The notes under the pieces are model-generated. The model was not told the DNA's origin. It made no database searches and worked only from the letters and a program-made list of their open reading frames with translations. A program made the translations under genes and the position numbers. From a virus: a stretch of 31,006 nucleotides of DNA. The stretch spans positions 1 to 31,006 of the IMG/VR virus record IMGVR_UViG_3300045926_000355; one strand, 5' to 3'. Positions 1 to 27,265 of the stretch are shown here, one piece after another (the first letter of the stretch is position 1; each line of letters starts with the position of its first letter).

Positions 1-996
1 GGTGGCACTCATGTCGGGGTTGCTGGTCTTGTAGGCGCGCCAGGTCGGCCAGTCGCTCTCCTCCAGGTGCCAGATGCCCCGCCGCTTGTGCGCGCGGCTG
101 GCGCGCTTGGTCTGCCCCTCGGCGTCGGTCCACTCGTAGGCCGGGAGCCAGTCCTCCTGCGCCAGCGGCGGGTTGCCCGGCCGCGCGTAGCCGTAGCACA
201 GCGAGCTGACCTGCCGCTTCATGTCCTCGGGGTTGTAGCGGTCCTTCTTCCGCGAGCCCTTGCTCAGGCCGACGATGTACAGCTCGGTGACTTCCGCCCC
301 GTACAGCTGCGGGGTGTCGAGCGTCCCGAGCCCCAGCTGCATGTCGGTTTCCCACTGCTCGGCCCACGCGTCTGAATCCCAGCCGGTGGTCTTGCACTCG
401 AAGTAGGCGAGCGCGCTGCCGCCGCGGCGCTGCGCCAGCAGGTCGGTCCTGAGCATCAGCGCCTTGCCCGTGCAGCCACGGCGCGCGTGTTCGGCGGCGT
501 CGTGCGGCGGCGCGCCGCAGGCGCAGTCGAGGAAGTGCAGCCGCTCCTGTTCGACCAGCACGATGCGGTAGGTGCTGAGCAGCCACGGCAGGAACTTGAG
601 ATACAGCACCCACAGCAGCCCGGCGATGAGCGAGCGCTGCTCGACGATCGTCTCTTCGGTGGTGTCGCTGCCGAGGATGCCGCGGAAGCCGCGCGCCTCC
701 ACCCGAGATACATATGCAATGCAGACGTCGTCGATGATGCCGCGGGTTTCCTCCAGCGTCGGCAAGCGGTCCTGCTGGAGGATGGTGGCGAAGGCCTCCA
801 GCCCCTGATGCACGCTCAGCCCGGTCGCCAGCGGCAGCGACTCGCGCTTCGCAGTGAGGCCGTAGCCGGTGGGGCCCGCGTGATACCCCAGGTAGCGCTG
901 ACGCGCGCAGCGGCTGGTGCCGGTCTTGAAGCGGGAGCGGTCGGTGTACCACAGGAGATCCGTGGCTGGTGTCGTCGTCGTCGTGGGTGTCGTCAT
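1..996 (-). CDS. PD-(D/E)XK nuclease, RecB/Cas4-like (partial, C-terminus outside window)
   Basis: Probable phage exonuclease of the PD-(D/E)XK fold, for recombination, replication or host DNA degradation. The open frame runs 332 codons from ATG at 996 off the window edge. Seen in the translation: an N-terminal SRCARQRYLGYH segment (about residues 28-39), like the 'CPRRY' entry motif of RecB-type nucleases; a conserved-type GLSVHQGLEAF with His63; Asp185 in RTDLLA; Glu200-x-Lys202 in FECKTTG; and Gln220. This H...D...ExK...Q order is the family's active-site order. Cysteines 158, 160 and 175 lie just before the active site and could bind metal. It starts 17 nt after the stop of the XRE gene and is likely co-transcribed. 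Family call fairly sure; exact role inferred. Confidence 0.7.
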   Translation of the reverse strand, partial: MTTPTTTTTPATDLLWYTDRSRFKTGTSRCARQRYLGYHAGPTGYGLTAKRESLPLATGLSVHQGLEAFATILQQDRLPTLEETRGIIDDVCIAYVSRVEARGFRGILGSDTTEETIVEQRSLIAGLLWVLYLKFLPWLLSTYRIVLVEQERLHFLDCACGAPPHDAAEHARRGCTGKALMLRTDLLAQRRGGSALAYFECKTTGWDSDAWAEQWETDMQLGLGTLDTPQLYGAEVTELYIVGLSKGSRKKDRYNPEDMKRQVSSLCYGYARPGNPPLAQEDWLPAYEWTDAEGQTKRASRAHKRRGIWHLEESDWPTWRAYKTSNPDMSAT

Positions 997-1012
997 CGTC
1001 GCCTCGTCGTCA

Positions 1013-1330
1013 TCACGCCTGTTGCATATGCATCTCCGCCGTCACGCCCTCAGCGGGCGGCGGCGCACGGCGACGACGGCGCTTCTTCGGCTTGAGCAGC
1101 GCCGCCAGCGGCACGCCGGTGATCGCGTGCAGCGTCAGCGCGAGCTTGGCGCTCGGCGTCCGCGTGCCGTTGGCGATCATCGAGATGTGCGATTGGTTGC
1201 AGCGGGCGCGCTTGGCGAGCTGGCGCTGGCTGACGCGTGGGGGACCGGCCAGATAGGCCCGGAGGGAGACGAACGGGCCGGGCCGCGAACTGCCGTATTC
1301 ATCGGAGGTGCGGCGGGGATGGTTCAACAC
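1013..1330 (-). CDS. XRE-family helix-turn-helix regulator
   Basis: Small DNA-binding regulator of 105 aa if started at GTG 1330. The HTH_3 domain covers about residues 23-79, with the recognition region QRQLAKRARCNQSHISMIAN, followed by a run of basic residues (KPKKRRRRR) and a short tail. The open frame extends upstream to a TTG at 1387, but that TTG is itself the first half of a TTGACA promoter box, and the -10 element at 1358-1363 lies inside that extension. A start downstream of it is therefore preferred; GTG 1330 is the first candidate, with a weak ribosome site. The gene is first in the operon with the nuclease and diverges from the second XRE gene. Likely Cro- or repressor-type; which one is not shown. 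Confidence 0.7.
   Translation of the reverse strand: MLNHPRRTSDEYGSSRPGPFVSLRAYLAGPPRVSQRQLAKRARCNQSHISMIANGTRTPSAKLALTLHAITGVPLAALLKPKKRRRRRAPPPAEGVTAEMHMQQA
1025..1034 (-). repeat. GATGCATATG dispersed element, copy 1
   Basis: On the minus strand this reads GATGCATATGCAA. It overlaps the last codons of the XRE gene, about 30 nt before the nuclease start codon. It shares 13 nt with copies 4 and 5. Confidence 0.75.
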
Positions 1331-1357
1331 GGCCGACACCGACGGGGGCGAGCGGCG

Positions 1358-1387
1358 ATTTAACGAAATGTGAAGAGCCGCTGTCAA
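1358..1387 (-). promoter_or_regulatory. Sigma70-like promoter for XRE/nuclease operon
   Basis: On the minus strand, TTGACA (1382-1387) is a perfect -35 box. It is followed after 18 nt by TTAAAT (1358-1363), matching the -10 consensus at four of six positions. Predicted transcription start is near 1350, which sets an upper limit for the XRE start codon. Confidence 0.55.
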
Positions 1388-1611
1388 GCACTTCGTGATT
1401 GCGGCCAGAAATCGCGTACTTCACGCGGAGCCATCGCTCGGCCGAGTCGCCTGCTCACAGACGGGCCCGGCAGATACGGCTCAGGTTTTGCTCAGGAAAT
1501 ACGGGGAATTCTACGAATAAACACGGAGAGGAGATTCCCCGAGGCCGTGGCGGCGCGTGGCGGCGACTTGCGGTGAGGCGCGAGCGGTGGCGACGCGGCG
1601 GCGTCTGCTAA

Positions 1612-1660
1612 AGTATCACAATCTGTCATCACAGTGCAGGTGATGACACTTAGTGATACT
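1612..1660. promoter_or_regulatory. Four-half-site symmetric operator-like dyad
   Basis: Two nested perfect 8-bp inverted repeats share one centre at 1636. The outer pair is AGTATCAC (1612-1619) with GTGATACT (1653-1660). The inner pair is GTCATCAC (1625-1632) with GTGATGAC (1640-1647). All four carry ATCAC/GTGAT, and each half pair is offset by 13 bp. This fits two HTH dimers binding cooperatively. ATGACA at 1643-1648, a five-of-six -35 match, lies inside it, so bound protein could block transcription toward the gene at 1716. It could also fold as a hairpin. Confidence 0.65.
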
Positions 1661-1715
1661 CTAACTCTTACTTAGTGCGGCGCGAACACTGGGCCGCGTA
1701 GCAGAAGGTCCCTTA

Positions 1716-2189
1716 ATGGCTAGTGCGTCCGTCCCTCCGACCCCCACCCTCACGTTGTCACAGGCCTTCAACCAGAAGATCAAGGAACTCCTCGAAGAGC
1801 ACGGCGTCTCCCAGGCCGAACTCTCCAAGCGGTTGGGGGTGAGTCAGCCCACAGTGAGCTATCTGCTGAAGCCCCACGGGCGGCGCACGCAACGGCCGCA
1901 CCCCTTCGACTTCTACCAACAGCTGGTGCAATCGTTTGGGCTCGAACTAAGTGACGTGCTGCGGGAGATCGAGGCGCGCGTGCGTGCGGCGCAGGGCCCA
2001 CGGCGCACGCGCATGGAGCCGCGACGGCGCGCCTCGGCGATCAGCCGCAGCGGCGCCCAGCCGTCCTTGCTGGTCTCCCACACGGCGCTGGATTCGGAGC
2101 TGCGGCAGCACCTGCAGCGGCAGCTGGAGTTGCTGCATGAACTGCATCTGCAACGCCAGCTGACCGCGCGCGGGCGCTCACGACGCTGA
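1716..2189 (+). CDS. XRE-family repressor-like protein with coiled-coil tail
   Basis: DNA-binding protein of 157 aa. The HTH_3 domain spans about residues 18-82, with a clear helix-turn-helix at QAELSKRLGVSQPTVSYLL. A basic linker follows (about 90-125), then a Leu/Gln-rich segment (LRQHLQRQLELLHELHLQRQ) likely to form a coiled coil for oligomerisation. There is no LexA/CI-type peptidase domain, so any induction would not be by self-cleavage. ATG 1716 has AGAAGG 8 nt upstream. The 49-bp dyad lies 56-104 nt upstream, so autoregulation is likely. The last 12 nt overlap the end of the convergent gene at 2178. Repressor role is inference. Confidence 0.75.
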   Translation: MASASVPPTPTLTLSQAFNQKIKELLEEHGVSQAELSKRLGVSQPTVSYLLKPHGRRTQRPHPFDFYQQLVQSFGLELSDVLREIEARVRAAQGPRRTRMEPRRRASAISRSGAQPSLLVSHTALDSELRQHLQRQLELLHELHLQRQLTARGRSRR

Positions 2190-2873
2190 GGAGGAGGAGG
2201 GCGCAGGCGGGGCCGGAGGCATCGCGACGAACGCGTAGGCGCGGTGGCCGTTCTTCTTCGCCTTCCGCAAGTAGCCCTGCGTGACGTAGTTGTACATCCC
2301 CGTGAGGGATGCCACGCCCGCCGCGCGAGCCAGCGGCACCAGCTCCTTGATCGTGACAGGCCCCTTGGCATCGCGCACCAGGCCGACGATGATGGCGGTC
2401 TTGTGTCCGTCGGCGCTCGCGCGCGGGTGGGTGTGCGGCGGCTTGCTCGGGGGCTTTTTCTTGGTGTGCGGCTTCATTTGGTACTGCGTGTAGTGCCGCT
2501 CGCCCCGTCGCGCTAACTCGCCGCGGGCCGCGAGCCGCTGCACCAGCTTCTGCGCGCGGCTGTAGGGCATCACCTCCCCCTGCCGCTGCAACTCCTCCCA
2601 GAGTGGGCGACTGCCGACCCACGTCGCCTGCCGTGCGAGGTAGGCGCGGATGATCCCGTGGTGGCGCTCCATGTCCTCGGCGGTCGCGCGCTCCTGCGTG
2701 GCAGGGCGCTGACGCTCGCGGAGCGCGACGGCAGCGGTGAGCATGCCGTTGATCTTCGGTGCCTTGGTCGTGGTCGCGTGGCCGGTTAGTTCCGCAATCG
2801 CGAGGCGAAGCGCGGCGGCCTTCTGCTCATGAGCCTGAGCGAGCGCTTCGAGTTTCTCCGTCGTCGTCGTCAT
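2178..2873 (-). CDS. Tandem winged-helix-like DNA-binding protein, unknown role
   Basis: 231 aa. The N-terminal 30 residues form a likely helix (EKLEALAQAHEQKAAALRLA). Two segments have the helix-helix-helix-wing look of winged helices: about 73-131 (GIIRAYLARQ to RHYTQYQ) and about 158-216 (KTAIIVGLVRDAKGPVT to RAYAF). They are joined by a Lys/Pro-rich linker at 133-150. The Ser/Pro/Ala tail is probably disordered. It is last in the three-gene operon read from the promoter at 3737-3764, 5 nt after its neighbour, with AAGGAG ahead of the ATG. I do not recognise a named family. A regulator or replication accessory is possible. Confidence 0.6.
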   Translation of the reverse strand: MTTTTEKLEALAQAHEQKAAALRLAIAELTGHATTTKAPKINGMLTAAVALRERQRPATQERATAEDMERHHGIIRAYLARQATWVGSRPLWEELQRQGEVMPYSRAQKLVQRLAARGELARRGERHYTQYQMKPHTKKKPPSKPPHTHPRASADGHKTAIIVGLVRDAKGPVTIKELVPLARAAGVASLTGMYNYVTQGYLRKAKKNGHRAYAFVAMPPAPPAPSSSSAS

Positions 2874-2878
2874 CGTCG

Positions 2879-3382
2879 CTACTCCTTCCAGCCTTGCTGG
2901 TCACGCTTGGTGAAACGCTCGACGCGAATCTTGTGCGCCTGATCGCGGCGCTGGGCCTTCCGCCGCTTCGTGGCCTTCCGCTCCTGCGCCTGCTGCACCT
3001 GGTCGCGATGCTTCAGGGTCTCGAAGGTCACTACCTTGTCGCCGTTCCTGTGCTTCTGCACGTAGCTGGCGAGCGGGTAGCTCCCGCCGATGCCCTTGGC
3101 CTCGAAGGCGGCGCCGAGGACGGCGAGGCTGACGACGCCCATGCGGGGCACCGCCAGCGCCGCAGGCGGGAGCTTGTCGTAGACCCACTGGAGGTTGGGG
3201 ACCTTCAGCGCGTCGTGCAGGATGTGGGTGAGCAGGCGAGCGGCGTGGAAGTTGTAGCACTCCACGGCCGCGAGCTGGCTGCGTGTGAGGCGGTCGGTCC
3301 CGACTTGCAGCACCGGGGAGGCGGCGCTCTCTTGCAGGTGTTTGACCGCCGTCGATCCGAGGATCGAGGCTTCGAGGTTCAT
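2879..3382 (-). CDS. Hypothetical protein with basic C-terminal helix
   Basis: 167 aa, not recognised. The N-terminal two thirds looks globular and largely helical (LTRSQLAAVECYNFHAARLL, then MGVVSLAVLGAAFEAKGI). The last 50 residues are a highly charged helix rich in Lys, Arg and Gln (VQQAQERKATKRRKAQRRDQ) that may bind nucleic acid. The ATG overlaps the stop of the upstream gene (ATGA), so the two are translationally coupled. The position beside the replication helicase suggests DNA metabolism, but nothing in the sequence proves it. Confidence 0.6.
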   Translation of the reverse strand: MNLEASILGSTAVKHLQESAASPVLQVGTDRLTRSQLAAVECYNFHAARLLTHILHDALKVPNLQWVYDKLPPAALAVPRMGVVSLAVLGAAFEAKGIGGSYPLASYVQKHRNGDKVVTFETLKHRDQVQQAQERKATKRRKAQRRDQAHKIRVERFTKRDQQGWKE

Positions 3383-3684
3383 GCGGTGCGCTCCTTTCGC
3401 GGCGCCAGCTCGCGCAAGCTGGCCGCGACGGCATCGGGACCCGCCGCGTTCAGCGTGACGAAGAACACGCGCAGCGCCTCAGCGAAGGCATTGGCCTCCG
3501 CCATGTCAGCGACCTCCAGCGTCCACGACACGTCGCGCCATGCCTTGTACTGGTGGCGGGTGCCGGTGGTGCGGAGGATCATGGGTTGCACCCGCAGGCG
3601 CAACGGTTTCCCCGGCCGTTCCTCAATCGCCTCCAGCAGGGAGCGATTCTGATCGGCGAGGTCGCGGGCATACTCGGTCTGCAT
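3379..3684 (-). CDS. Hypothetical protein, first gene of minus-strand operon
   Basis: 101 aa, not recognised. Predicted alpha/beta protein without Cys motifs. The open frame extends four codons further to TTG 3696, but that stretch is the Shine-Dalgarno itself (GAGGAGG), so ATG 3684 is chosen. It is the first gene behind the promoter at 3737-3764 and overlaps the next gene by 4 nt. Confidence 0.6.
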   Translation of the reverse strand: MQTEYARDLADQNRSLLEAIEERPGKPLRLRVQPMILRTTGTRHQYKAWRDVSWTLEVADMAEANAFAEALRVFFVTLNAAGPDAVAASLRELAPRKERTA

Positions 3685-3736
3685 AGGCCTCCTCAACTGT
3701 CCCGGTTGTGGTTAGGGCTCGCGCCCCCCGCGAGAC

Positions 3737-3764
3737 AATACAAGCATAGATCGAAAGCTGTCAA
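3737..3764 (-). promoter_or_regulatory. Sigma70-like promoter for the 3684-2178 operon
   Basis: On the minus strand, a perfect -35 TTGACA (3759-3764), a 16-nt spacer, then TGTATT (3737-3742), four of six against the -10 consensus. It lies about 50 nt before the ATG at 3684. Confidence 0.6.
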
Positions 3765-3793
3765 CTCTAACAACTGTCGCGCAGGTCGTTGGG

Positions 3794-3805
3794 CTACGTA
3801 CGTAG
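3794..3805. promoter_or_regulatory. Palindrome CTACGTACGTAG between divergent promoters
   Basis: A perfect 12-bp palindrome. It lies 30 nt from the minus promoter -35 box and 26 nt from the plus promoter -35 box, a fitting place for an operator controlling both. Its GTACGTA core recurs in tandem at 5810-5827. Confidence 0.45.
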
Positions 3806-3830
3806 GTCGGGCCCTAGATGCGGGGGAACC

Positions 3831-3860
3831 TTGATTAGGGCGTGGGAGGTGGGGTAGAAC
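3831..3860 (+). promoter_or_regulatory. Possible promoter for helicase gene
   Basis: TTGATT (3831-3836), 18 nt, TAGAAC (3855-3860), each four of six matches. Predicted start near 3867 gives a leader of about 97 nt that holds the hairpin at 3896-3917. Weaker than the minus promoter. Confidence 0.35.
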
Positions 3861-3895
3861 GGCGCCTTCGATTTTACGCGGTGTTTGCTTCGGGA

Positions 3896-3917
3896 GACGG
3901 GCCCGGCTAGGCCCGTC
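3896..3917 (+). promoter_or_regulatory. Strong GC hairpin in helicase leader
   Basis: GACGGGCC pairs perfectly with GGCCCGTC around a 6-nt loop. With a one-base bulge the stem extends to 3894-3920. It has no following T-run, so it is not a classical terminator. It could stabilise the leader or attenuate. Confidence 0.45.
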
Positions 3918-3963
3918 CCCACAGCCCCATCAACCCAGACGGACGGACGGCAAGGAGGTCCAA

Positions 3964-4953
3964 ATGTCTGCCACAGACGATCCCAGAAGTCAAGAGAGTC
4001 CTGTGATCCTCCCGTTCCCCTCGCGCGTCGCGCTGACCGATCCCCTCCCCGACATCATCCCCGCTGGCGGCATCTCGCTGCTGGCAGGCGCGCCCGGCGT
4101 GGGCAAGACGGCGCTGCTCGCCAGCCTGGCGCGCGACCTGAAGCGCGGGCGTCCGGTCTTCGGGCACCAGCCCTCGCCGATCCCTGAGGTCGGTATCGTC
4201 ATCGCCGATCGCGGCTGGGATCGGGGCGCCGAGTTCTGGTTCTCCCGCGTCGGCTACGCCGAGATCCCGCACTATGCAATGGCGGACGACACGCTGTTCG
4301 ACCCCCGCAGCCTGCGGCGGAAGTTCGAGCGCACCCAGCGCCTGTTCGAGTTCATCGACCGGCTGAAGCTGCCGCCGGGCAGCGTGGTGATCGTCGATCC
4401 CCTGTCGCTGTTTTTGGGCGGCAACTTGATGGATTACGACGGCTGTGCCGTGGCGTGCCACGAGATCCGGGCCCTGCTCCGCCAGCGGGGACTGACGATG
4501 CTGGCCTCGGCCCACTCCGCCAAGCTGAAGGCCGACAAGAAGGACCGCTACCTGCGCCCGCAGGACCAGATCCTCGGCACGACCGCCCTGATCGGGTTCT
4601 GTGACACCTCGGCGTACCTCGCCAGCCCGGAAGAGATCGGCAAAACCTTCTATATGTTTCTCTGGCAACCGCACGCGGTCCCGCTAGAGACGTTCCAGCT
4701 GGAACGGGACGACCAGGGCCTGTTCGTGCCCTACGGCGGGACCGACTTCGGTACGGTCCGGCGTGTGCTGGACCTGTTCCCGGCTGACGGGAGCCTCGTC
4801 AAGCTGGAGACGCTGCGCCAGCTGGCGGAGGCCATCCCGCTGTCGCTGACGACCATCAAGCGGGCACTCGACAAGCTGATCGAGGAGGGCAAGATCACCC
4901 GCGCGCGGTTCGGCGCGTATCGGCGCCTGCTCTCCCCCTTCGACGCGACCTGA
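3964..4953 (+). CDS. RepA/RecA-like replicative helicase or initiator ATPase (AAA_25 type)
   Basis: P-loop ATPase of 329 aa, similar in layout to the RSF1010 RepA hexameric helicase family, expected to unwind DNA at the phage origin. Walker A GAPGVGKT is at residues 42-49. Walker B hydrophobic strand plus Asp (SVVIVDPLS) is at about 140-148. A later LASAHSAK segment resembles the sensor/Q-motif strand, and DQILGTTALIGFCD follows as in RepA-like ATPases. The last 70 residues read as a winged helix (LTTIKRALDKLIEEGKITR). ATG 3964 has AAGGAGGT at ideal spacing. It is a lone plus-strand gene between two minus-strand blocks, followed by the AT-rich/inverted-repeat region. A loader-type ATPase is the alternative. 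Confidence 0.8.
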   Translation: MSATDDPRSQESPVILPFPSRVALTDPLPDIIPAGGISLLAGAPGVGKTALLASLARDLKRGRPVFGHQPSPIPEVGIVIADRGWDRGAEFWFSRVGYAEIPHYAMADDTLFDPRSLRRKFERTQRLFEFIDRLKLPPGSVVIVDPLSLFLGGNLMDYDGCAVACHEIRALLRQRGLTMLASAHSAKLKADKKDRYLRPQDQILGTTALIGFCDTSAYLASPEEIGKTFYMFLWQPHAVPLETFQLERDDQGLFVPYGGTDFGTVRRVLDLFPADGSLVKLETLRQLAEAIPLSLTTIKRALDKLIEEGKITRARFGAYRRLLSPFDAT

Positions 4954-4969
4954 CTTTCGCCCTCTGCCG

Positions 4970-5000
4970 GATCGCCGACTCAGGCGAAGAGACGGCGATC
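4970..5000 (+). terminator. Possible hairpin after helicase gene
   Basis: GATCGCC (4970-4976) pairs with GGCGATC (4994-5000) across 17 nt. An overlapping alternative is TTCGCC with GGCGAA. No T-run follows, so intrinsic termination is doubtful. Confidence 0.3.
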
Positions 5001-7265: not shown

Positions 7266-7429
7266 GTCTGCCCTCCCGTCTCGCGGATGGCCTGCGCGAG
7301 ATCGCGCAGTGAGGGTTCGAGCGGATGCGCCGCGGGTGGGCGTCTCCCGCGCTCCGCCCGCCACAGGGCGACGGCGAGGTTGATCGCCGTCAGGGCGAGG
7401 TTGAGCAGCAGCCAGCGGACGGGCGTCAT
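7262..7429 (-). CDS. Small single-helix membrane protein
   Basis: 55 aa. One N-terminal hydrophobic segment (WLLLNLALTAINLAVALW) after a short MTPVR, then a charged cytosolic-type tail. It overlaps both neighbours by 4 nt. Possible partner of the adjacent XhlA-like protein; function unknown. Confidence 0.55.
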   Translation of the reverse strand: MTPVRWLLLNLALTAINLAVALWRAERGRRPPAAHPLEPSLRDLAQAIRETGGQT

Positions 7430-7629
7430 GCTACGAACAGGCGCACGAGGACGCCCCCCGTCAGGACGACGTTGGTCCCGACCATCCACTTGAGCACCTT
7501 CACGTCGGCCTCGATGGTCGCCAGCCGCGAGTCGTAGGCCGCGACCTCCTCCGCCGCCTGTCGGGCCGTCTCCTCATCGACGTGCCCGGCGATGAGCGCC
7601 CGGTAGAGCGCCCCCAGCATCATTGCCAT
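7426..7629 (-). CDS. XhlA-like membrane-associated protein
   Basis: 67 aa. An amphipathic helix (EETARQAAEEVAAYDSRLAT) leads into DSRLATIEADVKVLKWM and a single C-terminal hydrophobic helix (VGTNVVLTGGVLVRLFV). Coiled coil plus terminal membrane anchor is the plan of the XhlA/haemolysin-type proteins found in phage lysis cassettes. AAGGAG lies 9 nt before ATG 7629. The three-gene membrane group suggests a lysis or envelope role, but no endolysin is adjacent. Confidence 0.45.
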   Translation of the reverse strand: MAMMLGALYRALIAGHVDEETARQAAEEVAAYDSRLATIEADVKVLKWMVGTNVVLTGGVLVRLFVA

Positions 7630-7635
7630 ACTCCA

Positions 7636-7824
7636 TTACTCCTTGTCATCACCAGTATACGGGTCCGCCGTGGCCGGTGTCGCCGCGGCGTGTTTCGCCC
7701 GTTTCTTGGCCTTCGCCGTCTTGCGTGCGAGCCACTCGGCTCGCGTGCTCGCGTTGCGGCCTTTCAGTTCGGCCCGCCCGTGCGTCTTGTAGGCGGACCG
7801 GGTGCGGTGGTCACGAATGCTCAC
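7636..7824 (-). CDS. Small basic hypothetical protein
   Basis: 62 aa, rich in Lys, Arg and Ala (ARKTAKAKKRAKHAA), perhaps nucleic-acid binding. GTG start overlaps the stop of the CxxCxxCC gene (GTGA). Not recognised. Confidence 0.5.
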   Translation of the reverse strand: MSIRDHRTRSAYKTHGRAELKGRNASTRAEWLARKTAKAKKRAKHAAATPATADPYTGDDKE

Positions 7825-9187: not shown

Positions 9188-9430
9188 TCAGGGCGCGATG
9201 ATCATCCCGGTGTAGGTACGAATGCAGCGACGGCACACCCGCCGCCGCTGGGGGCTGTCAGGGAAGGCGATGGTGGTCACCTCCCGTTCACGCGTGCAGT
9301 CCTCGCAGACGCCGCGCCAGTAGCGGCGCCGCCGGGTGCGCGGCCGCGCCTGACAATCGGTGCAGACCGTCTGCCCGTGCAGCTGCGCCAAGGCGTCGAG
9401 CACATGATCGCCCTTGGCACACCGCGTCAT
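9188..9430 (-). CDS. Small multi-CxxC zinc-ribbon protein
   Basis: 80 aa with four Cys centres: Cys4, CTDC, CEDC and CRRC, separated by basic stretches (RPRTRRRRYW). CxxC pairs around a strongly basic loop suggest a zinc-ribbon nucleic-acid-binding protein. ATG 9430 overlaps the stop of the upstream CxxCxxCC gene. Not assigned to a family. Confidence 0.6.
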   Translation of the reverse strand: MTRCAKGDHVLDALAQLHGQTVCTDCQARPRTRRRRYWRGVCEDCTREREVTTIAFPDSPQRRRVCRRCIRTYTGMIIAP

Positions 9431-9891
9431 CGCTCGCCCCCGTCGTGGTCGTACGCCAGCGGGCGGTGACTGGTCGCCGGGGCCAGCGTGCGGCGCAGCG
9501 ACTGGTACGCCTCGTCGCTCGCTTGCAGGCGCATCATCCACAGGCCACGGCGCTGCCCCTCCTCGCCGCTCATATGCGTATCGAAGTGACTGCACCCGAA
9601 CGGCGCGACCGGGTGAATGCGGCAGGCCCCCTGCCGGTCGAGGAAGACACACCGGCCGTCTTTCATCCGCGGGGTGATCGTGCCCACCCGCAGCTGGGCC
9701 CCGGTCGCGCGGTTGCCCATGACGCCGCCGGGGCTGGCGACAAACAGGCTGCTCGCCTCACGGACGGTCTTGCCCAGGTACGCGGCAATCGCCTCCAGCT
9801 GGCCGGGGATGAGCGGCCCCGGCTGGCGGGTGCAGCAGGCCTGACACTCCGGGCAGGCGCAAGTCGTACGCTCGAAGGGAGGCGCGGTCAC
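9427..9891 (-). CDS. YkgJ/FliB-like CxxCxxCC metal-cluster protein (copy B)
   Basis: 154 aa from GTG 9891. The N-terminal CACPECQACC (Cys11, 13, 16, 19, 20) and the later CVFLDRQGACRIHPVAPFGC (Cys81, 90, 100) form the PF03692-type cluster 'CxxCxxCC ... C.fL...g.C.ih...P..C'. Compared with copy A at 7821 it has a longer insert, with LEAIAAYLGKTVREA resembling the family's helix between Cys groups. GTGA overlap on one side and ATGA on the other tie it into the operon. Metal binding likely; reaction unknown. Confidence 0.75.
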   Translation of the reverse strand: MTAPPFERTTCACPECQACCTRQPGPLIPGQLEAIAAYLGKTVREASSLFVASPGGVMGNRATGAQLRVGTITPRMKDGRCVFLDRQGACRIHPVAPFGCSHFDTHMSGEEGQRRGLWMMRLQASDEAYQSLRRTLAPATSHRPLAYDHDGGER

Positions 9892-10481
9892 GACGCCGCC
9901 TCCTGCCCCTTCTCCTTCGCCTCCTGCTGCCAGCGCCAGATCGCGTTGTTGATCGCGTTGATCCCGTCCCCGATGTTGGCGTGCCAGCGGAACTTGTCGC
10001 CCACGTTCACGCGTCCCTTCTCGCCGCGGGTTTCGACCATGCCCACGCAGCCCAGCGCCTCGGCCACCCGCCCGCAGTAGTCGCCGAAGTTCCCCGCGTA
10101 GCCGCGGCGGTCGGCCAGCTGGCGCAGCTTGCGCTCGATCAGCGCCAGCGTCTTGGACATGCGCGTGGCCTTCCGCGCGTCCACGGTGTAGACGTCGTGG
10201 TACAGCACGTCCCAGCCGTACACCGCGCCGTTGTGGCCGATGTGCTCCCGCAGGCGGCTCTTCTCGTCGCCCTGACAGCTGATGCGGAGGTTGCTGTAGA
10301 GGATCCCGTTGTCGTAGTCGTCGTCCACGCCGTAGACCACGTACTGGCCGTTCTCGTACTTCTGCGTGCAGACGCGCAGGCGGATGTGGAAGTAGGGCCC
10401 GTCGCCCCAGCCGGGGCTGCGCTCTTCCATGATGTGCAGGTACAGGGCCTGCGTCGGCTTGTTCGTGCGCTTGGTCGCCAT
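9888..10481 (-). CDS. Hypothetical protein
   Basis: 197 aa, not recognised. A beta-rich N-terminal half (DGPYFHIRLRVC...QYVVYGVDDDYDNGILYSN) and a helical C-terminal half (SKTLALIERKLRQLADRRGY). No catalytic motif seen. The start MATKRTNKP at ATG 10481 carries the AGGACAACGA leader. Upstream lie a GC hairpin and an AT-rich element dyad, so a new transcript may begin or be regulated here. Confidence 0.6.
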   Translation of the reverse strand: MATKRTNKPTQALYLHIMEERSPGWGDGPYFHIRLRVCTQKYENGQYVVYGVDDDYDNGILYSNLRISCQGDEKSRLREHIGHNGAVYGWDVLYHDVYTVDARKATRMSKTLALIERKLRQLADRRGYAGNFGDYCGRVAEALGCVGMVETRGEKGRVNVGDKFRWHANIGDGINAINNAIWRWQQEAKEKGQEAAS

Positions 10482-10484
10482 TGC

Positions 10485-10494
10485 TCGTTGTCCT
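10485..10494 (-). promoter_or_regulatory. AGGACAACGA start-associated leader, copy 3
   Basis: Ends 3 nt before ATG 10481; flanks AA and GCA match copies 1 and 5. Confidence 0.6.
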
Positions 10495-10499
10495 TTCGT

Positions 10500-10538
10500 C
10501 CGGGCGCGTCGTCGGGGCCTCCGTCCGCTCGCGCCCGG
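10500..10538 (-). promoter_or_regulatory. 9-bp GC hairpin in leader
   Basis: CCGGGCGCG pairs perfectly with CGCGCCCGG around 21 nt, directly upstream of the leader of the gene at 10481. It may slow read-through or shield the ribosome site. No T-run. Confidence 0.4.
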
Positions 10539-10557
10539 CTTGAGAGATGAGATGAAA

Positions 10558-10567
10558 CATATGCATC
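10558..10567 (-). repeat. GATGCATATG dispersed element, copy 3
   Basis: Forms the left arm of an 11-bp perfect inverted repeat with copy 4; lies in the gap between two minus-strand genes. Confidence 0.75.
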
Positions 10568-13498: not shown

Positions 13499-13965
13499 CC
13501 AGGTACCGCCCGCCCGCTGCCCGCTTGCCGGGTGTACCCGGCCCCGGCTCACGTCGCCCCCGCAGCTGCAGGCGTCTCGCAGGCCGTCTCACCAGCCTGT
13601 GTACGCCCCTGCAGCTTGTGCCCGAGGCCTCGACCTACTGCCGGGCTGGTTAACATAACCATTCCTATACGACCCTGAGCGCATAAGTCCTTTGCTGTCA
13701 ACAATTAACTCGCCTCGCGATCGCCCCGCCAGCTGCCGCGCCGCCTCTCAGCCATCCGCCGCGCCGCCGCGCCGCCCGCCTTGCGCCCCTGCAGCTGTGG
13801 GCGATGCACGGATCTGCACGCAGCTGCGCGCCAGTGCCCAGAACTGCACGCGGCTGCATTGTCCGCGAGGCCCCCTGCGGCCAGGGCGGGAGCGCCCGCG
13901 CTCGACTCCAGATATTTTTTCGTCGTGATTTTTTCTGTTCACTCCCTGTGATAGCCTCGCGGCCG

Positions 13966-14235
13966 ATGTCGCACGACGACGGCACCCCCTTCGCCGCGAT
14001 CACCGAGGTCGATCACGCCCGCCTGCAGCGCCACACGACGCTGCTGGCGATCTGGCGCGACCTGCCCGTCGATGAACTGCTCGGCGATCTCAGCGTCCTG
14101 GCGCAGCTCTGCGCCTTTCGCGCGCACCAGCACCTCGGGGTCGATGGCGCGGTGGCGCTGGCGCGCAAGCTGGCGGACGAGGGCGGGACGCACGACTGCA
14201 CCGAGTGGTGCCAGGTCTGCGGGAAGCGGGGATGA
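13966..14235 (+). CDS. Hypothetical protein, first of the right operon
   Basis: 89 aa, helical, with a Cys/His tail (HDCTEWCQVCGKRG). The chosen start ATG 13966 has no visible Shine-Dalgarno. A possible extended -10 (TGTGATAGC, 13947-13955) would place transcription at or just before the ATG, so leaderless translation is possible. An upstream extension to 13804 is rejected as its sequence looks non-coding. ATGA overlap with the next gene. Confidence 0.55.
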   Translation: MSHDDGTPFAAITEVDHARLQRHTTLLAIWRDLPVDELLGDLSVLAQLCAFRAHQHLGVDGAVALARKLADEGGTHDCTEWCQVCGKRG

Positions 14236-26071: not shown

Positions 26072-27265
26072 ATGCCGGGGCCACTTCTCAAGGATCCATA
26101 TGCATCGTCGACTGTGCCGACGTGGGTGCGCGACCTGCGCGACTGGTCGGCGCAACCGCAGGCGCCCGACTTCTGGTCGACGAAGGTGGAGCAGCCGGGG
26201 AAGACACTGGCGACCGAGGCGATCCGGCAGCTGCTCGGATTCGGGATGGATCCGCGCAATCAGCTGAACATGCTGGCGACCACGAACGTCGGCAAGCCGC
26301 CCGCTCCGCCCGCCACCGGCATCCGCGCCTATCACGGCTCCCCGCACGACTTTGATCGCTTCGACCTCTCGAAGCTGGGTACGGGCGAAGGCGCGCAGAG
26401 CTACGGGCACGGTCTGTACTTCGCCGAGGCGGAGCCGGTCGCTCGCAGTTATGCCTTGTCGCAGACGCGCACGCTGGTCGGAGGGCGCTCGGCGATGGAG
26501 GTCGCCGACGAGCTACCCTCGTCGTCGATGGAGGCGGCTCGCCGCTGGGGAGTGACCGTCTCGGAGGCGGCGCGGCGCATGGACATTCCACGGATCAACG
26601 TGATCAACACGCTGGCGAGCTACGGGAAGAACGCCGAGACGATGTTGCTCAACAAGCCTCAGGAGCTGATGCTGCTTCGCCGGATGCTCAAGTCGGGGGA
26701 GGTACAGTTCCCAGAGGGGCATATGTATGAGGTCGATCTCCGTGTCGATCCCTCGCAGCTGCTCGACTACGACGTCCCGCTCGGCAGTCAATCGCCCGCC
26801 GTGCAGCAGGCGGTTCGGGACGTGATCGGGCGCCTGCCACCGGGATACCCCGGGCGGGACCTCTATGAGCGGGCGCAGGCGCAGTACGGGCGCGCGGCAG
26901 CGAGCGACGCGTTCCGCATCTCCGGCGTGCCTGGGCAGCGCTATCGCGATCAGGTCTCCCGCGCGCGTGTCGACCTGCAGCCGCCCACCTTCAACAACAG
27001 CGCGAAGCAGTGGGAGGTCCTGAACTTCAACGGGCAACTCATCGCGAAGGAGGCCACGCCGGGGCTGGCGTGGCAGCGAGCACAGGAAGCCGCCCGCACC
27101 CTCGGCACGCGCAACTACGTGATCTGGGACGACTCGCTCATCGACATCCTCCGCAAGTACGGCCTCCCCGCCCTGATCACCGGCGCCGCCTACGGCGCGC
27201 AGCAGCAGGGCGCCACCCCGCCGCCCGTCCGCCCGGTCGCCTCCCACACCCGCGGGCCGTCCTGA
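26072..27265 (+). CDS. ADP-ribosyltransferase-like protein (ART-PolyVal type)
   Basis: 397 aa. Residues 87-119 contain YHGSPHDFDRFDLSKLGTG, then GAQSYGHGLYFAE, the characteristic start of the ART domain found in phage polyvalent proteins (PF18760 type); His88 and Tyr116 fall where the family's active-site residues lie. An insert of about 80 residues (135-212) follows. MYEVDLRVDPSQLLDYDVPL, GVPGQRYRDQ and NYVIWDDSLIDILRKYG complete the domain. Elsewhere this domain is usually fused into very large proteins or MuF; here it stands alone behind the portal and is probably packaged and injected to modify host targets. Confidence 0.75.
   Translation: MPGPLLKDPYASSTVPTWVRDLRDWSAQPQAPDFWSTKVEQPGKTLATEAIRQLLGFGMDPRNQLNMLATTNVGKPPAPPATGIRAYHGSPHDFDRFDLSKLGTGEGAQSYGHGLYFAEAEPVARSYALSQTRTLVGGRSAMEVADELPSSSMEAARRWGVTVSEAARRMDIPRINVINTLASYGKNAETMLLNKPQELMLLRRMLKSGEVQFPEGHMYEVDLRVDPSQLLDYDVPLGSQSPAVQQAVRDVIGRLPPGYPGRDLYERAQAQYGRAAASDAFRISGVPGQRYRDQVSRARVDLQPPTFNNSAKQWEVLNFNGQLIAKEATPGLAWQRAQEAARTLGTRNYVIWDDSLIDILRKYGLPALITGAAYGAQQQGATPPPVRPVASHTRGPS
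26097..26106 (-). repeat. GATGCATATG dispersed element, copy 7
   Basis: Inverted relative to its gene, inside the first codons of the ART-like gene (25 nt after ATG). The only copy well inside a reading frame. Confidence 0.7.

Follow-up and report, generated by a model that had tools for sequence, protein, structure and literature searches.

The question raised by this locus is what kind of element the symmetric 49-bp sequence at 1612-1660 is. It lies in front of a gene for an XRE regulator (1716), and the first-pass annotation had read it as one concentric operator of four half-sites. The whole stretch analyzed (the window) is a complete IMG/VR virus entry of 31,006 bases with 68.6% G+C; it carries terminase-like and portal-like phage genes and is probably a 31-kb piece of a ~70-kb genome, the genomes of its phage group extending up to ~70 kb. 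Besides, the ORF at 26072-27265, after the portal-like gene, gave a below-cut-off match to ART-PolyVal (2.8e-5), and the minus-strand ORF at 9427-10566 matched a CxxCxxCC putative zinc- or iron-chelating domain (3.7e-7).

We found that the outer arms of the element, AGTATCAC (1612-1619) and GTGATACT (1653-1660), are exact inverted repeats over 8 bp, and that the inner arms, TGTCATCAC (1624-1632) and GTGATGACA (1640-1648), are exact over 9 bp and share the center of the outer arms at 1636. ATCAC is repeated at a 13-bp offset within each arm, and the start of gene 1716 lies 55 bp downstream. In these respects the description by the first-pass annotation (two 8-bp inverted repeats with one center, a 13-bp offset and a position before the XRE gene) was accurate, the inner arms being one base pair longer than claimed. 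Pairing was observed at 20 of 24 arm positions (4-27 around 1636), the highest value of all centers in the window (runner-up 18). A score of 20 was attained in 1 of 300 first-order Markov simulations of the 31-kb window (maximum 21) and in none of 20,000 simulated 81-bp stretches of local composition. The symmetry thus exceeds chance, yet not astronomically by itself, and the 17-mer conserved in relatives is stronger evidence than the symmetry score. The arm mismatches (positions 13, 14 and 16) map to the non-conserved 5-bp spacer of this 17-bp unit.

The DNA of positions 1-4990 had no match among the 50,697 annotated phage records searched, the 1716 protein as a single query had no close relative in viral contigs or annotated phages, and the exact four-half-site pattern was absent from viral contigs. 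Bacterial and archaeal genome contigs, scanned twice, yielded no relative. Syntenic relatives were reached via two neighbor proteins, the AAA ATPase at 3964 and an unnamed 332-aa protein at 1-996. Eighteen records were counted. Loci in already counted records were left out, for example L007, L025 and L042 (record of L015), L008 and L044 (L014), and L011 and L052 (L021), as were records that matched counted ones in coordinates and identity, such as L004, L009, L010, L013 and L016, and L012/L053, with the contig ending at the region; L055 and L056, which are alike, were both retained. A record was taken to lack a 1716 homologue if tblastn, run with several homologues as queries, gave nothing at 1e-3. 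The homologue in L003, which in its HTH part is 28% identical to 1716, was missed by tblastn and recognized by ORF reading. L026 was rejected as a carrier of a 1716 homologue: its match was a 32-residue, HTH-only one without syntenic genes, and it had no strict site.

The unit that recurs in these relatives is the palindrome ATSAC-N5-GTSAT (hereafter strict site), commonly extended to GATGAC-N5-GTGATA or TATCAC-N5-GTGATA. All seven records with a 1716 homologue (the window, L003, L005, L006, L015, L018 and L037) had a strict site in the 1716 promoter, at the position of O1 (Table 1). It was found in 1 of 11 records without the homologue, namely L014, which has three, and in none of L021, L020, L017, L019, L022, L041, L047, L050, L055 and L056 (Fisher p = 2.5e-4 against 7/7, an optimistic value because kinship among the records makes the counts not independent). 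The strict pattern was defined after the loci had been viewed, except for L037, which was found later and is the cleaner test: its 1716 homologue is preceded by TATCACTCTCTGTGATA, with a PWM score of 24.1, the top of its 11 kb. A spacer of 5 gave 15 matches in 12 non-redundant sequences (168,886 bp), against 0-4 for the other spacers from 0 to 12. Scanning of whole records gave 21 strict sites, spread over 8 records, in a set of 13 and 2 sites, both in one record, in a further set of 6; the reversed-pattern control gave none in all 19 whole records scanned. The first-pass annotation had proposed a search for further GTGAT-type sites in the rest of the genome; additional operator copies were present elsewhere in related phage genomes. 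One site from the relatives, ATGACTAGGAGTCAT, did not occur in the literature searched.

Two other readings of the half-sites were weighed against this unit. The first-pass annotation had stressed GTGAT-type words repeated every 13 bp, but as a direct-repeat unit this accounted for 4 of 8 aligned promoters, compared with 8 of 8 for the ATSAC-N5-GTSAT palindrome. Half-sites in direct order peaked at 8 matches at spacing 8, mostly the GTGATGAC-N5-GTGAT sites themselves. The GTGA and TCAC words might also suggest a site for a host global regulator of the CRP/FNR type; CRP half-sites, however, run in the opposite order to the ATSAC-first order here, and the everted arrangement GTSAT-N-ATSAC showed no peak (3 or fewer matches at any spacing from 0 to 12), which makes such a site, in our estimate, scarcely credible.

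Within the window, scored by a PWM built without it, the best positions were 1643, 1615, 7635 and 13938, in that order, and the fifth scored 9.4. The first two lie inside the 49-bp element, which is most likely two adjacent 17-bp operators of the lambda type in mirror orientation (15-bp cores at 1643-1657 and 1615-1629) rather than a set of concentric dyads. The outer halves are exactly TATCAC and GTGATA, and the inner halves are GATGAC (4 of 6 positions lambda-like). The O1-O2 distance is 28 bp from center to center, which is not a whole number of helical turns.

Table 1. Predicted regulatory features of the window and candidate operators elsewhere in it
Feature	Position	Strand	Basis
O2, distal operator, TATCAC-AATCT-GTCATC	1614-1630	-	Exact ATSAC-N5-GTSAT; held-out PWM 23.0, second in window
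O1, proximal operator, GATGAC-ACTTA-GTGATA	1642-1658	+	Exact match; held-out PWM 24.2, best in window
Candidate operator ATTACTCCTTGTCAT (minus strand ATGACAAGGAGTAAT)	7635-7649	-	PWM 19.6; upstream of leftward ORF start at 7629
Candidate operator TTCACTCCCTGTGAT	13938-13952	+	PWM 15.8; 13 bp before ATG at 13966
XRE (Cro/CI-type HTH) regulator 1716, 157 aa	1716-2189	+	Pfam HTH_3, 3.1e-7; HTH about residues 14-92
Second XRE regulator 1013	1013-1339	-	Pfam HTH_3, 1e-7; listed ORF 1013-1387, likely GTG start about 1339
Predicted sigma70-type promoter of 1716	1634-1662	+	-35-like GTGCAG (1634-1639), 17 bp, extended -10 TGATACTCT (TACTCT, 1657-1662)
Predicted promoter of 1013, TTGACA-18 bp-TTAAAT	1358-1387	-	Similar promoters in relatives (see text)

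Whether the shared center has a meaning of its own can be judged from the second sites of the relatives, which the first-pass annotation had suggested examining for symmetry. The number of strict sites per region ranged from 1 to 3. The second site was in direct orientation in L006 (28 bp away), L015 (40 bp away) and L018 (a weak site, 26 bp away) and in mirrored order in L014 (22 bp away). L003 and L037 had a single strict site in the 1716 promoter, and L005 had additional half-sites only. Since orientation and distance of the second site differ among relatives, the mirror orientation in the window is a variant, and two inverted copies of any site share a center automatically. The alternative is that the outer and inner dyads are held by one tetramer whose geometry follows from the 49-bp symmetry. 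The exact common center in the window agrees with it, and there are known XRE-fold controllers that occupy two dimer sites as a tetramer; one of them, C.Esp1396I (tetramer, 3clc), was among the PDB XRE folds that the 1716 domain resembled (best Z 10.8). However, apart from the varying second sites and the triviality of the center, the inner pairing it calls for, ATSAC-N7-GTSAT, had 4 matches in the 12 sequences versus 15 for N5, and we hold this arrangement to be improbable. A higher-order (tetramer) complex could form but is not required by the data. Of the earlier reading, an operator-like DNA element before the XRE gene is retained, and concentric symmetry as a conserved, meaningful feature is not. 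Exact concentric symmetry can arise as a by-product of two ordinary operators facing in opposite directions, which calls for caution wherever it is met.

The position of O1 relative to the predicted 1716 promoter suggests how a pair of ordinary operators could act. O1 fills the spacer of this promoter and runs two bases into the -10 hexamer, a register that was constant across the aligned promoters (in all 8, the final TA of GTGATA was set as the first TA of the -10). Seven of the 8 promoters ended the -10 with T (background 0.17), and 6 of the 8 had TTG at 17-18 bp upstream of it (background 0.017); in the window this place is taken by GTGCAG, a poor -35, and L014 has nothing similar. TGA preceded the -10 in 8 of 8 promoters, and this TGA belongs to the operator motif. 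A generic consensus promoter scanner found no promoter at 1716. A composite -35/operator/-10 pattern was also tried and rejected: it returned only the L005 and L006 contigs and missed L015, where the gap is one base too long. Because O1 overlaps the spacer and the -10, a bound repressor should block RNA polymerase. The overlap also bears on the idea that the repeats work at the RNA level, by folding into an attenuator or terminator hairpin. The fold of the window sequence is strong (-24.5 kcal/mol, z -4.4), but the equivalent stretches of L005 (-10.1), L006 (-13.8) and L015 (-16.1), which have direct repeats or half-sites, are without it; moreover, no T-run follows the stem, the scanner does not list it, and an element overlapping the predicted promoter would lie upstream of the transcript. 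A hairpin function is accordingly very unlikely in our view.

Which regulator reads these sites is a separate matter. Both 1013 and 1716 carry HTH domains only, no CI-type C-terminal peptidase being found by Pfam in either. About 380 bp separate the two genes, each of which has its own predicted promoter. 1013 homologues were present in all 6 relatives with a 1716 homologue. In the AlphaFold2 model of 1716 (mean pLDDT 70), an HTH domain of five helices is followed by a C-terminal helix (115-153); this tail is one long helix of moderate confidence, and its sequence is not conserved among the homologues. Gln33 and Gln44 were invariant in 1716 homologues, and we take them to correspond to contact residues of lambda CI. 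The recognition helices of 1013 and 1716 are similar, and those of the 1013 type have Gln-Ser, presumably as in lambda CI.

The co-occurrence of strict sites with 1716 homologues slightly favors 1716 as the binder. L014, in contrast, favors the gene in the 1013 position, for it lacks a 1716 homologue and yet combines three operators with an XRE gene there. One could suppose that only 1013, in the CI position, reads the operators and that 1716 is a mere target. Besides L014, the integrase distribution described below, which tracks 1013, and the presumed CI likeness of the Gln-Ser helices agree with this. On the other hand, L020 and L021 carry a 1013 homologue and an integrase and no strict operator in the region, and the strict operator was always at the 1716 promoter and mostly absent at that of 1013. 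The chance that 1013 alone is the reader is appreciable, though we lean against it. Weaker PWM hits were present in the regions of L020 (11.8 and 4.5, 28 bp apart) and L021 (16.0 and 13.3), and the operators of these two records may have diverged rather than vanished. Of the 7 records that have both regulators, 5, among them the window, carried a promoter of the form TTGACN-17/18-TWNNNT at a place comparable to the predicted 1013 promoter; in most records the 1013 promoter was without a strict operator, and an operator-like site was present there in L015 and L037. By analogy with CI and Cro, we favor joint use of the operators by 1013 and 1716, a view we hold with less confidence than the paired-operator reading itself.

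We consider it quite likely, from the comparison of relatives, that the 49-bp element is a pair of 17-bp lambda-type operators, each read by one XRE repressor dimer. In the mechanism that we infer, with respect to repressor binding, repression, the identity of the binder and cooperativity alike, a dimer on O1 would exclude RNA polymerase from the rightward 1716 promoter, and O2, 28 bp upstream, would add occupancy and possibly cooperativity. Gene 1716 would then be autorepressed, repressed by the divergent 1013, or both, with operators shared as by Cro and CI in lambda. A bolder version is that, in this phage alone, the upstream operator was inverted into a mirror promoter-operator module, with divergent extended -10s (TGATACTCT rightward and TGATACTTT leftward) that share a palindromic TGCA -35 region, and with one XRE tetramer on the four half-sites of the 49-bp dyad. 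We judge it unlikely; if true, it would be a symmetric two-way switch replacing the ordered OR1-OR3 of lambda.

Candidate sites were also observed away from this locus. The operator candidates at 7635 and 13938 (Table 1) lie upstream of small ORFs (7426-7629, minus; 13966-14235, plus) to which no function was assigned; TATACT is found at 7659-7654 beside the former, and the latter has a -10-like TAGCCT, placed relative to the operator as the -10 is at O1. A second class of sites, ATGAC(T/A)AGGAGTSAT or its reverse, was present at L028 987-1001, L030 1005-1019, L031 1004-1018 and L006 10762-10776. Their spacer holds a Shine-Dalgarno-like AGGAG, a start codon lies a few to a few tens of bases away, and a TAnnnT hexamer often stands immediately before the site, which gives the impression that operator, ribosome site and transcription start have merged. 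Similarly, ATGAC-N5-GTCAA was found at L005 5724, L006 5717 and L018 5661, in the interval that separates the leftward gene block from the AAA gene, and its GTCAA half is also a leftward TTGAC -35.

Integrase genes place the locus in a wider setting. An integrase (PF00589) over the cut-off was present in 8 of 18 records, comprising all 8 relatives with a 1013 homologue (L003, L005, L006, L015, L018, L037, L021 and L020) and none of the 9 without, among which L014 was placed although a different XRE gene sits in its 1013 position; L019 had a sub-threshold match. The window, a 31-kb fragment, gave no integrase match; several relatives carry theirs about 11 kb past the 1-996 side, a position that would fall outside the window record. 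From this distribution we infer that regulators, operators and integrase form a temperate module of the phage group. The locus looks like the immunity (lysis-lysogeny) region of the temperate members of this group, where 1013 and 1716 occupy CI/Cro-like positions, and the window's own phage is presumably temperate. In L014, three strict operators (3529-3602) are present without a 1716 homologue or an integrase, which gives the picture of a switch whose rightward gene was lost. A strict operator directly precedes the integrase ORF in G004 (40654-40668; L030 1005-1019); general control of integrase by the operator was rejected, as a strict site was found before only 1 of 8 integrase genes examined. 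The code separates members that have regulators, operators and integrase together from members with none, and ATSAC-N5-GTSAT offers a concrete, testable operator code for a phage group without a DNA match at this locus among the annotated records.

Several known systems resemble this arrangement. The published lambda operator consensus is TAtCACCGCcaGTGaTA (PMC10742460). The OR/OL sites of CI and Cro share with the present ones a length of 17 bp, the TATCAC-N5-GTGATA geometry, the presence of more than one copy and, here by sequence only, a location on an early promoter between divergent XRE genes. They differ in that the fourth half-site base here is C or G, the spacer is not CGCCA, and the window has two copies versus three tandem operators; the regulators here are also small, with the peptidase domain absent by Pfam, and their genes lie about 380 bp apart. 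In Staphylococcus phage Phi11 (PMC3991615), 15-bp operators likewise lie between the divergent cI and cro repressor genes and are thought to overlap promoters; there are three operators there, of which CI uses two. Controllers of restriction-modification systems form a further parallel. For C.Csp231I, a U-bend tetramer has been proposed, and its two 15-bp sites, CTAAG-N5-CTTAG, are separated by 18 bp (PMC4321490). Like C.EcoO109I, it has two palindromes ahead of the start of its own XRE gene; the sites of C.Csp231I have a 5-5-5 layout, and it has a C-terminal helical extension, as with the predicted helix of 1716. The gaps between sites are 18 and 25 bp in C.Csp231I and C.EcoO109I, compared with 13 bp between the 15-bp cores here. 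These controllers are linked to restriction-modification genes and are needed for transcription of their own genes, and their sites are C-boxes of the GACT/AGTC type or CTAAG-N5-CTTAG, as opposed to ATSAC-N5-GTSAT here; in the subset of neighboring ORFs scanned, no Pfam restriction or methylase domains were found. By analogy with C.Csp231I, a higher-order complex is possible without concentric symmetry. Seen against these systems, the operators at the locus appear real and of an ordinary kind, and comparative sequence supports them well.
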